DNA of 64,000 bases, from the NCBI RefSeq assembly GCF_001425005.1, contig NZ_LMDB01000012.1:434001-498000 (forward strand), given 5' to 3'. The notes below the pieces were generated by a model. That model was not told the DNA's origin, searched no databases, and saw nothing but the letters and a program-made list of their open reading frames with translations. Source of the DNA: Duganella sp. Root336D2 (GTDB taxonomy: Bacteria > Pseudomonadota > Gammaproteobacteria > Burkholderiales > Burkholderiaceae_D). The position numbers were made by a program, and so were the translations under genes. Below, in pieces: positions 37,938 through 40,602 of this stretch. The number at the start of each line of letters is the position of its first letter. Within the stretch, counting starts at the first letter, position 1.

Positions 37938-37984
37938 TAACTACATTTAGTGTGTAATATCCATAAAGACACAACATATAGTTA
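37938..37984 (+). promoter_or_regulatory. Tandem NrdR boxes
   Basis: Two 16-bp sites match the NrdR consensus acaCwAtATaTwGtgt: TAACTACATTTAGTGT (37938-37953, 12 of 16) and ACACAACATATAGTTA (37969-37984, 13 of 16). Their 31-bp spacing (three helical turns) is the spacing typical of NrdR box pairs. They end 10 bp before the nrdD start. NrdR with dATP/ATP would repress the operon. Confidence 0.75.
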
Positions 37985-37993
37985 TTAAAAACG

Positions 37994-39715
37994 ATGACGC
38001 CGATTCGCAAGACAACCGTGGATGTGCAATCCTCGATCGATGAATACCTCCAGCAGCTTGACTGGCGGGTGAATGCCAACGCCAACCAGGGCTATTCCCT
38101 GGGCGGCATGATCCTCAATATCTCGGGCAAGATGGTCGCCAATTACTGGCTCGATCACGTCTACCCGCGTGAAGTCGGCGAGGCGCACCGCAATGCCGAT
38201 ATCCACATCCACGACCTCGACATGCTGGCCGGCTACTGCGCCGGCTGGTCGCTGCGTACTTTGCTGAGCGAAGGCCTGAATGGCGTGCCGGGGAAAGTGG
38301 AATCGGCGCCGCCGAAGCACTTGTCCAGCGCCGCCGGCCAGATCGTCAACTTCCTCGGTACACTGCAGAACGAATGGGCCGGTGCGCAGGCATTCAGTTC
38401 TTTCGACACCTATATGGCGCCTTATGTGCGCAAGGATAAGCTGGGATACGAGCAGGTACTGCAAACCATCCAGGAGCTGATCTACAACCTGAATGTCCCG
38501 TCGCGCTGGGGTACGCAAACGCCGTTCACCAATCTGACCTTCGACTGGACCTGTCCGGAAGACCTGCGGGAACAGGTGCCCGTGATCGCCGGCGAAGAAA
38601 TGCCCTTCACCTACGGCGAGCTGCAAGCCGAGATGGACATGATCAACCGCGCCTATATCGAAGTCATGATGCGCGGCGATGCCAAAGGGCGCGCCTTCAC
38701 TTTCCCGATCCCGACGTACAACATCACACCGGACTTCGACTGGCACAGCCCTAACGCGGAAATGCTGTTCGAGATGACGGCGCGCTACGGCCTGCCTTAT
38801 TTCCAGAACTTTGTGAATTCGGAACTCAAGCCGAACATGATCCGCTCCATGTGCTGCCGCCTGCAGCTCGACCTGCGCGAACTGCTCAAGCGCGGCAACG
38901 GCTTGTTTGGTTCGGCGGAGCAAACCGGCTCGCTTGGCGTGGTCACATTGAATTGCGCGCGCCTTGGCTACCTTTATGCGGGTGATGAGGCGGCGCTCCT
39001 TGGCCGCGTGGACGAACTTCTCGCGCTGGGCAAGACCAGCCTGGAAATCAAGCGCCAGGTGATCCAGCGCCTGATGGACGGTGGCCTGTTCCCCTATACC
39101 AAACGCTATCTCGGCACGCTGCGCAACCACTTCTCCACGCTCGGCGTGAACGGTATCAATGAAATGATCCGCAATTTCACCAACGACAGGGAAGACATCA
39201 CCACCGAAGCCGGCGCTGCGCTGGCCACCCGCCTGCTGGATCATATCCGCGCCCGCATGCTGGAGTTCCAGGAAGTGACCGGCCATATGTACAACCTGGA
39301 GGCGACTCCGGCCGAAGGCACAACCTACCGCTTTGCCAAGGAAGACCGAACCCGCATGCCGGCGATCCTCCAGGCCGGCACGAAGGAAATGCCGTACTAC
39401 ACCAACTCTTCGCAGCTCCCCGTTGGCTTTACCGACGATCCATTCGAGGCGCTGGAACGGCAGGACGAACTGCAAAGGAAGTACACCGGCGGCACGGTGC
39501 TGCACCTGTACATGACCGAGCAGGTATCCAGCGCCGATGCTTGCCGCCGCCTGGTGCAGCGCGCACTGACGCGCTTCCGCCTGCCCTATATCACCATTAC
39601 GCCGACATTCTCGATCTGCCCAAGACACGGCTACTTGAGCGGCAAGCACGAATTCTGTCCGAGATGCGATGAGGACATCATTGCGCGCAAATCGCGCGAA
39701 CTTTCACTTAACTGA
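37994..39715 (+). CDS. nrdD: Anaerobic (class III) ribonucleoside-triphosphate reductase, catalytic part
   Basis: A 573-residue protein that makes dNTPs without oxygen. It opens directly with the catalytic barrel (DWRVNANANQGYSLGG, ADIHIHDLDMLAGYCAG) and has no N-terminal ATP-cone. Active-site landmarks include SMCCRLQLDLRE and QTGSLGVVTLNCARLG. The C-terminus is the Zn-binding segment (ICPRHGYLSG, FCPRCDEDI). It stops before the glycyl-radical segment, which is a separate gene 10 bp downstream. There is no obvious ribosome-binding site before ATG 37994. The neighbours are the radical segment and nrdG. Confidence 0.92.
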   Translation: MTPIRKTTVDVQSSIDEYLQQLDWRVNANANQGYSLGGMILNISGKMVANYWLDHVYPREVGEAHRNADIHIHDLDMLAGYCAGWSLRTLLSEGLNGVPGKVESAPPKHLSSAAGQIVNFLGTLQNEWAGAQAFSSFDTYMAPYVRKDKLGYEQVLQTIQELIYNLNVPSRWGTQTPFTNLTFDWTCPEDLREQVPVIAGEEMPFTYGELQAEMDMINRAYIEVMMRGDAKGRAFTFPIPTYNITPDFDWHSPNAEMLFEMTARYGLPYFQNFVNSELKPNMIRSMCCRLQLDLRELLKRGNGLFGSAEQTGSLGVVTLNCARLGYLYAGDEAALLGRVDELLALGKTSLEIKRQVIQRLMDGGLFPYTKRYLGTLRNHFSTLGVNGINEMIRNFTNDREDITTEAGAALATRLLDHIRARMLEFQEVTGHMYNLEATPAEGTTYRFAKEDRTRMPAILQAGTKEMPYYTNSSQLPVGFTDDPFEALERQDELQRKYTGGTVLHLYMTEQVSSADACRRLVQRALTRFRLPYITITPTFSICPRHGYLSGKHEFCPRCDEDIIARKSRELSLN

Positions 39716-39725
39716 GGAGATATGC

Positions 39726-39899
39726 ATGACCGCTAACCAACCAGCCCGGGAGATCACGCTCACCAACGCCGAACGCCATCCTTGCGAAATCTGGACGCGC
39801 GTGATGGGCTACCACCGTCCATACTCGTCCTTCAACGTCGGCAAGAAGGGCGAATTCAACGAGCGCACTTATTTCGTCGAGCGCAAGAATAATGGCTGA
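39726..39899 (+). CDS. Glycyl-radical segment of class III ribonucleotide reductase (separate gene)
   Basis: A 57-residue protein. HPCEIWTRVMGYHRP contains the RVxGY glycyl-radical signature (Gly28 would carry the radical), and SSFNVGKKGEFNERTYF is the usual NrdD tail. In typical NrdD this is the C-terminus of one chain. Here it has its own GAGGAG ribosome-binding site overlapping the nrdD stop, its own ATG, and lies in a different frame. It must dock into the nrdD product for activity. It overlaps nrdG by 8 bp. Confidence 0.85.
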   Translation: MTANQPAREITLTNAERHPCEIWTRVMGYHRPYSSFNVGKKGEFNERTYFVERKNNG

Positions 39900-40602
39900 C
39901 AGGGAGCTCAAGGTTGGCGGCTACGCAAAGTTCACGTCGACCGACTATCCTGGAGAGCTGGCGGCCGTGGTGTTTGTCCAGGGCTGTCCCTGGCGCTGCG
40001 GCTACTGCCATAACCCGCACCTGCAGCCTCGCGACGCTGAGCCGGCAATTGCATGGCGTGATTTACTTGCCTTCCTCGCAGGCAGGGCAGGGATGCTGGA
40101 TGCCGTAGTTTTCTCCGGCGGCGAGCCGACCCTCGATCCTGCGCTGGAAAACGCCATGCGCAGCGTGAAAGGTCTTGGCTTTAAGATCGGCCTGCACACG
40201 GCAGGCATCTACCCAGAGCGTTTGAAACAGGTACTGCCTCTGGTGGACTGGGTGGGGTTGGATATCAAGACCGCATTCGATGCCTACGACGAACTGACTG
40301 GCGCCAGCGGCAGTGCGCAAGCAGCCCATGCAGCGGCACGCCTGGTGATTGAAAGCGGCGTGCCATACGAATTCAGGACCACGGTGCATCCCAAGTTGAC
40401 CACACGCCAGCATATTGTCACACTGACGCAACAGGTCTCGGACATGGGATGCGAGACTTATGTGCTGCAGGACTTTCGCTCTGCGGGATGCCGAGTCCAG
40501 GACTTGGTGAATTCCTCCAGCGAGGGCGGGCTGGACGGCGAATTGATCGGGCAGGTGAAATCGAAGTTCCGCCAGTTTATGCTAAGGCGTGCGGACGGCT
40601 GA
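39892..40602 (+). CDS. nrdG: Anaerobic ribonucleotide reductase activating enzyme (radical SAM)
   Basis: A 236-residue radical-SAM enzyme that uses S-adenosylmethionine and a [4Fe-4S] cluster to create the glycyl radical. The cluster motif CxxxCxxC is GCPWRCGYCHNP, followed by VVFSGGEPTL (SAM-binding GGE motif). It is somewhat longer than E. coli-type NrdG (~155) and closer to the 'NrdG2' type. The ATG overlaps the end of the radical-segment gene by 8 bp. The 3' end overlaps a convergent hydrolase gene by 26 bp. Confidence 0.9.
   Translation: MADRELKVGGYAKFTSTDYPGELAAVVFVQGCPWRCGYCHNPHLQPRDAEPAIAWRDLLAFLAGRAGMLDAVVFSGGEPTLDPALENAMRSVKGLGFKIGLHTAGIYPERLKQVLPLVDWVGLDIKTAFDAYDELTGASGSAQAAHAAARLVIESGVPYEFRTTVHPKLTTRQHIVTLTQQVSDMGCETYVLQDFRSAGCRVQDLVNSSSEGGLDGELIGQVKSKFRQFMLRRADG

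Follow-up and report, generated by a model that had tools for sequence, protein, structure and literature searches.

In textbook class III ribonucleotide reductases the radical glycine sits on the catalytic chain. The locus described here raises the question as to where this residue is to be found when the NrdD chain stops short of it, and whether such a gene is damaged or belongs to an enzyme of two chains. The window, the whole 64-kb stretch of DNA that we analysed, very probably encodes a class III (anaerobic) ribonucleotide reductase of the latter kind. In it, nrdD, a gene for 57 residues and nrdG form a single block, in which 10 bases and a change of reading frame separate nrdD from the small gene and nrdG starts 8 bases inside the latter. 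The features that matter for the argument are the following.

37994..39715, + strand: nrdD large chain, 573 residues, without ATP-cone and without glycyl-radical loop, ending past the Zn ribbon; PF13597 positions 2-534 of 562, NF006126.
39726..39899, + strand: gene of the putative glycyl-radical subunit, 57 residues, Gly28 in TRVMGYHRP, conserved Cys20; PF13597 positions 532-562.
39892..40602, + strand: nrdG, radical-SAM activase, 236 residues, CxxxCxxC; TIGR02495 (NrdG2, 194 bits), Radical_SAM.
39714..39719, + strand: GAGGAG, Shine-Dalgarno element by sequence, overlapping the nrdD stop at 39713-39715.
37938-37953 and 37969-37984, + strand: two NrdR-box-like 16-mers, 31 bp apart, upstream of nrdD.
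38852..38857, + strand: Cys287-Cys288 (SMCCR), position of the finger-loop radical cysteine, from alignment conservation; the radical role is presumed.
39617..39667, + strand: candidate Zn-ribbon ligands Cys542, His545, Cys555 and Cys558 (C-x2-H-x9-C-x2-C), from conservation; ligand role by analogy.

The original prediction had let the 573-residue chain end after its Zn-binding Cys segment and had placed the radical motif, with Gly28, on an ORF of its own, with GAGGAG over the nrdD stop and coupling to nrdG. The ORFs and the Pfam match bear out its coordinates, frames and ribosome-binding site, and the coupling takes the form of the 8-base overlap. Upstream of the block, the pair of 16-mers scores 24 of 32 against a palindrome that we take to be the NrdR consensus, compared with a mean of 16 and a maximum of 20 when the 250 bases upstream were shuffled 500 times (mononucleotide shuffling). 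Scores of at least 21 occur upstream in 52 of 78 relatives vs. 9 of 3900 shuffles, and 59 of the 78 relatives score above all 50 of their own shuffles. Searches of the same genome returned a single copy of the small gene, two further ribonucleotide reductase large chains (PF02867) and no match to PF01228.

Profile searches show how the two proteins complement each other. Pfam NRDD (PF13597), the only Pfam family on the large chain, matches it with 568 bits over profile positions 2-534 of 562, and NF006126 matches with 1044 bits; the 57-residue protein takes up positions 532-562 of NRDD with 29.0 bits against a curated cut-off of 26.2, so that the two chains together make up one complete domain. 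The large chain runs for only 15 residues past its last zinc-ribbon cysteine. Both cysteines of the Cys287-Cys288 pair are present in all 86 split rows and all 8 fused rows of our alignment, as is C82, and we take these three residues to provide the active-site cysteine and the finger-loop radical cysteine. An SCCR motif in class III NrdD is described in the available part of PMC4493059, and the zinc ligands given there for the Thermotoga maritima enzyme are the basis for an analogous ligand role of Cys542, His545, Cys555 and Cys558, which are kept in 86/86 split rows (85 for Cys558, with one X) and 8/8 fused rows. A Pfam search found no ATP-cone in the NrdD of the window; the split NrdD of Cupriavidus necator H16 (L034:771-2798) has one at its N-terminus, and several relatives look, like the window's copy, too short for it.

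The small protein has its radical glycine at position 28, encoded by codon 39807-39809. TRVMGY is present in 119/119 bacterial and plasmid homologues and in 80/80 viral ones, where part of the motif, but not the glycine, was fixed by the search patterns for many homologues. Between the window and three relatives (L002-L004), the motif core of the small gene has a dN of 0.012-0.05 and a dS of 0.51-0.92, and by this sequence comparison it is under purifying selection. Cys20 (39783-39785) is likewise kept in 119/119 bacterial and plasmid and 76/80 viral homologues, 80 of the 119 having been found by patterns, one of which holds that cysteine, and the other 39 without them. Both re-fused chains described below have Cys20 and more distant fused NrdDs lack it, while Cys517 of the large chain is nearly confined to the split clade (84 of 86 rows). 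We considered an inter-chain role for Cys20, but two split rows do without Cys517, and we claim no pairing. A profile of the small protein gave 0 matches at E<=1 among PDB sequences, for which it is probably too short. We also considered an identity of the pyruvate formate-lyase (PFL)/YfiD type; Pfam at E<=1 returns NRDD and nothing else, and PF01228 has no match in the genome. The likeness to GrcA/YfiD drawn by the original prediction therefore holds as an idea and not as a family relationship.

Is the arrangement peculiar to this strain? Of 120 loci from bacteria and plasmids, which were not deduplicated, 113 hold split pairs: 29 of 30 from relatives, 8 of 10 from plasmids and 76 of 80 from GTDB. 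The other plasmid loci comprise one lone and one fused gene, and the other GTDB loci three without nrdD upstream and one apparently fused (L059), whose assembly shows multiple frame breaks. Of the large chains in the 113 split pairs, 76 are uninterrupted, 34 are truncated by the start of the locus or contig and 3 are frame-broken (L032, L067, L070); the Bradyrhizobium plasmid that carries L032 has a second nrdD site, L248, annotated in the usual order large-small-nrdG. When 61 genomes (our own and 60 relatives) were searched with the small protein, 32 gave a match, in one case weak and with stops inside, and nrdD lies directly upstream in 29 of the 30 loci fetched; with the small protein alone as query, 13 of 36 congeners gave no match. 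This co-occurrence is a positive outcome of the check suggested in the original prediction, which asked if a short nrdD always adjoins the small protein, and its guess that small proteins annotated 'NrdD' may exist also proved right, RefSeq calling the small gene nrdD. A congener whose small protein is 86% identical (L002) has the same TGAGGAGATATGCATG junction as the window, and L003 and L004 have a 4-base overlap instead. For the 85 of 113 pairs in which a start could be placed, the two genes are -51 to +298 bases apart and every frame offset is represented, the small gene being in the nrdD frame in 45 and in the other two in 24 and 16; an SD-like element precedes it in 74 of the 85. The three genes adjoin in most loci, but nrdD is 9.5 kb away from the small-nrdG pair in G043 and 2.4 kb away in G393, so in these two genomes the chains can only come together in trans.

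Counted by genome, NRDD occurs in 112 of 349 members of the window's order (Burkholderiales, judging from named relatives), with a truncated large chain in 86, a chain read across one in-frame stop in 5, a fused chain in 20 and a small match only in 1; by our own count, 91 of the 112 score as split. All 86 have one or more additional NRDD matches; the small gene is documented individually for part of them, with at least 33 small matches. In one assembly (G469, 92% complete, 580 contigs) the search found the small match alone, without a large chain. An even draw of Pseudomonadota has NRDD in 35 of 249 genomes, 10 of them split in this lineage according to the match table and a follow-up of the in-frame cases. 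Alphaproteobacteria (Paracoccus, Bradyrhizobium, Shinella) and Campylobacterota (Sulfuricurvum) have the split as well. In one further genome (G339; L232, G339:C1:443000-447500, about 2440-2750), an in-frame TAG, AAGGG and ATG precede the radical segment of a distant NrdD (21% identical), which may have been split independently. A class III reductase encoded by two genes is real, old and common, and with split pairs this widespread and profile halves this complementary, the two-piece enzyme of the original prediction is well supported.

These data bear directly on two simpler accounts of the locus. A sequencing or assembly frameshift, or a recent mutation, could have broken an ordinary nrdD in this strain, leaving barrel and motif in different frames 10 bases apart, and the nrdD of a few relatives does have frame breaks (L059 and the three frame-broken split loci). 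However, two-gene junctions recur with the same or different spacing in 113 of 120 loci, and the small gene has a selected motif core and an SD element of its own; the chance that error or a fresh mutation explains the locus is next to nil, in line with the argument of the original prediction against a sequencing error or stop mutation. Programmed frameshifting or stop read-through, by which one continuous protein would be made, could draw on the 45 pairs that share a frame and on the fact that AlphaFold accepts a read-through chain. It is nevertheless very improbable given the 40 pairs in the other two frames, spacings of up to +298, the genes that lie kilobases apart in two genomes, the SD-like elements in 74 of 85 pairs and the out-of-frame pair of the window itself. 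Conservation as two genes, varied spacing and frame, and distant genes together exclude error and make recoding unlikely, and leave the two-chain enzyme as our preferred reading.

The history of the split was approached with a tree of 76 large-chain rows (quick IQ-TREE with SH-aLRT), in which 34 of 73 inner branches are open and the long branches of the outgroup are flagged. Most rows were found via the small protein as query, so fused relatives are under-sampled, and G339 lies outside the tree. The tree needs three state changes, one split (branch support 97) and two re-fusions: the fused chain of Acidiphilium (L241) is nested among split rows at 96-97 and that of Actinomyces oris (L201) at 85-88. 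This fits a single origin of the split in the ancestor of this NrdD lineage, followed by two re-fusions, although in Actinomyces there may have been a second split in place of a re-fusion. According to the original prediction, continuous chains in relatives would count against a two-piece enzyme; they do exist in these two lineages, besides the frame-broken L059, but both are nested among split rows. Re-fusion in two lineages also means that the split is not indispensable.

For a structural view, we used AlphaFold on a read-through chain from a Paraburkholderia MAG (L063), in which the two genes are in frame with one TGA between them, read here as W; the alignment held 20 other rows, two of them natural fused rows. 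The model has a mean pLDDT of 80.1 and a pTM of 0.82, and is fair around the radical glycine (blocks 621-650 at 78-90) and weak around the radical cysteine (blocks 301-330 at 44-69). It matches the solved class III NrdDs of T4, T. maritima, Prevotella copri and Streptococcus thermophilus with Z-scores of 29-35. On the P. copri enzyme (Z 34.8, rmsd 2.5, 544 residues) residues 33-656 are placed on 94-735, and on that of T. maritima 23-660 on 8-647, these being end residues only. The radical domain of P. copri NrdD is given as 676-739, with Gly711, in the part of PMC11226230 available to us; the alignment reaches this domain, and the small chain is therefore predicted to occupy the normal radical-domain place. 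Given the artificial linkage and the two fused rows in its alignment, the model speaks for compatibility of fold and not for affinity.

In the mechanism that we propose, the large chain would provide the ten-stranded barrel, the thiyl-radical cysteine and the zinc ribbon, and the 57-residue chain the buried loop with the radical glycine. The small chain would dock on the zinc-ribbon side of the barrel, with the Gly28 loop inserted toward Cys288; NrdG would abstract hydrogen from Gly28, and the glycyl radical would generate a thiyl radical for NTP reduction. A cut by O2 at Gly28 would then cost only a subunit of ~6 kDa, for which fresh or extra copies could be substituted, and the enzyme of 573-680 residues would be spared. 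Once it had arisen in a forebear of this NrdD lineage, the split would have been retained, and the resident large chain would draw on lone copies in phages and in some genomes as a further source of radical subunits. That the radical subunit is exchanged after damage has, in our estimate, roughly even chances, helped by the lone phage copies and the extra ones.

Such lone copies are numerous in viral sequences. In IMG/VR, the best 80 of 135 loci with the small protein (L121-L200) have no NrdD or NrdG in the flanking DNA covered (80/80). Forty records (15-108 kb, perhaps fragments) were searched whole; their NRDD matches are pieces of the radical domain only (profile 526-562), and neither an NrdD body nor NrdG2 was found in any of the 40. 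The viral proteins are 44-89 residues long where a start was placed, the script placing none for 9 of 80; 63 of 80 cores are distinct, and three (L160, L163, L193) have a stop codon within the matched stretch, after the motif. Replacement changes are fewer than silent changes in the eight close phage pairs tested. Neighbouring genes include integrase, endolysin, spanin, helicases, DNA polymerase A, a Mu-type portal, tail fibre and ThyX, the last of these, a dNTP-supply gene, lying next to the lone copy in L138. The motif region also matches phrog_4132, whose listed function is unknown, at positions 115-156 of 179. Among INPHARED phages, the small protein of the window found no match at E<=0.01, and a phage version as query found three weak ones (E about 0.1-0.2). 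A scaffold of an unverified gut phage (MT835493.1, L246:1704-4109) encodes an NrdD of a different build, an 802-residue fused chain with ATP-cone, NRDD and a C-terminal glutaredoxin/thioredoxin-like domain.

Lone copies also occur in cells. Five genomes have six of them beside a split operon: G558 (two), G645 (near a contig start), G623, G347 (where the operon nrdD is in two pieces) and G348. Pfam found no phage families among the tested neighbours of the copies in G558, G645, G347 and G348, two neighbours having no family at all, so these copies may be chromosomal. In G623, by contrast, the lone gene comes after phage lysozyme sequence (prophage) and the complete split operon is on another contig; viral contig L126 is identical to G623 over 5,045 bases, and the small proteins of host and prophage are clearly alike. 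Two Allochromatium plasmids (L035, L245) bear a lone radical-subunit gene annotated nrdD, which in A. tepidum lies between genes for a zinc-finger-containing protein and a DUF4942 protein. Two lone copies from different genomes (L071, L258) have the same kinds of neighbour, a gene for an M20 peptidase and one for a carrier, which Pfam identifies as DcuC in L071 and which has a similar sequence start in L258.

We lean slightly towards an auxiliary function for the mobile copies: a phage or plasmid would bring in only the radical subunit, which would dock on the split NrdD of the host and be activated by host NrdG, and anaerobic dNTP supply would be kept up or restarted during infection, including after oxygen damage. 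Two other explanations have to be weighed against this. The two-chain enzyme may be real and its split neutral, the small chain staying bound for good and never being exchanged, with phage and extra copies as mere passengers; the three genes are together in most loci and two lineages have re-fused, as this would lead one to expect, and we regard it as a serious contender that falls short of an even chance. It sits less well with the glycine kept in 80/80 phage copies, with the excess of silent over replacement changes in the close pairs and with extra copies beside the split operon in five genomes. The lone phage proteins might instead be decoys that inhibit the host reductase, in keeping with records that contain neither NrdD nor NrdG2 (40/40). 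A decoy needs no radical glycine, yet every one of the 80 has it, and the ThyX gene in L138 points to dNTP supply; inhibition is hence an unlikely function. The lone copies could also have another role. If they are indeed auxiliary subunits, spare-part repair would extend beyond PFL to another glycyl radical enzyme, with the phage protein as the part, a possibility raised in the available text of PMC8683613; the lone copies also hint at a function for part of the phrog_4132 family.

For experimental work, a cloned or purified 'NrdD' of the split type should be dead without its neighbour of ~60 residues. Conversely, the split allows the radical subunit alone to be added, labelled, mutated or swapped, so that NrdG-NrdD activation, half-site behaviour and oxygen repair could each be tested directly. 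An enzyme that has been studied genetically would appear to be of this kind: C. necator H16 has an NrdD of 676 residues with an ATP-cone and an NRDD match stopping at 532, followed by a 66-residue RefSeq 'nrdD' and then nrdG. The genome paper of C. metallidurans, in the part available, lists NrdDG as Rmet_5137 and Rmet_5139, skipping 5138, and cites Siedow 1999 for the finding that H16 cannot denitrify fully without NrdDG. The name nrdD is already given to the small gene in RefSeq, but the available portions of the literature searched, with Siedow 1999 (J Bacteriol) outside it, yielded no description of this split. What is new is the recognition of the small gene as a separate radical subunit, together with the lone phage and plasmid copies and the extra copies beside split operons.

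How does this enzyme compare with known systems? With the class III NrdDs of T4, T. maritima, P. copri and S. thermophilus it shares the barrel, radical cysteine, active-site cysteine, Zn ribbon, RVxGY loop and NrdG, and the locus has the NRDD catalytic domain, both kinds of cysteine, the conserved zinc-ribbon residues and the NrdG partner expected of the class. It differs in that the glycyl-radical loop is a separate chain, RVxGY being supplied by the pair in trans and not by the large chain alone, and in that the window's copy has no ATP-cone. GrcA/YfiD and T4 Y06I are likewise small stand-alone glycyl-radical proteins for a large barrel enzyme, one of them phage-borne, and according to the accessible sections of PMC8683613 only these, for PFL, are validated as spare parts, although others may exist. 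YfiD, however, replaces a domain that intact PFL also has, whereas here the large chain never has such a domain, and the small protein does not contain the PFL-type Gly_radical domain PF01228. NrdJa/NrdJb of Pseudomonas aeruginosa (class II) also has a C-terminal functional piece on a separate gene, but in the excerpts available of PMC5704485 and PMC9669993 that piece is the Cys-rich reducing domain of an enzyme with B12 as its cofactor; in the present case it is the radical-bearing part that has its own gene, and the large chain is NRDD instead of a class II (B12) chain. Finally, phage nrdD genes split by introns or homing endonucleases also have their coding sequence in two parts; those cases, as far as the available text of PMC3653736 describes them, are insertions and fragmentation in phage genomes, whereas the split described here is a conserved two-gene bacterial design.
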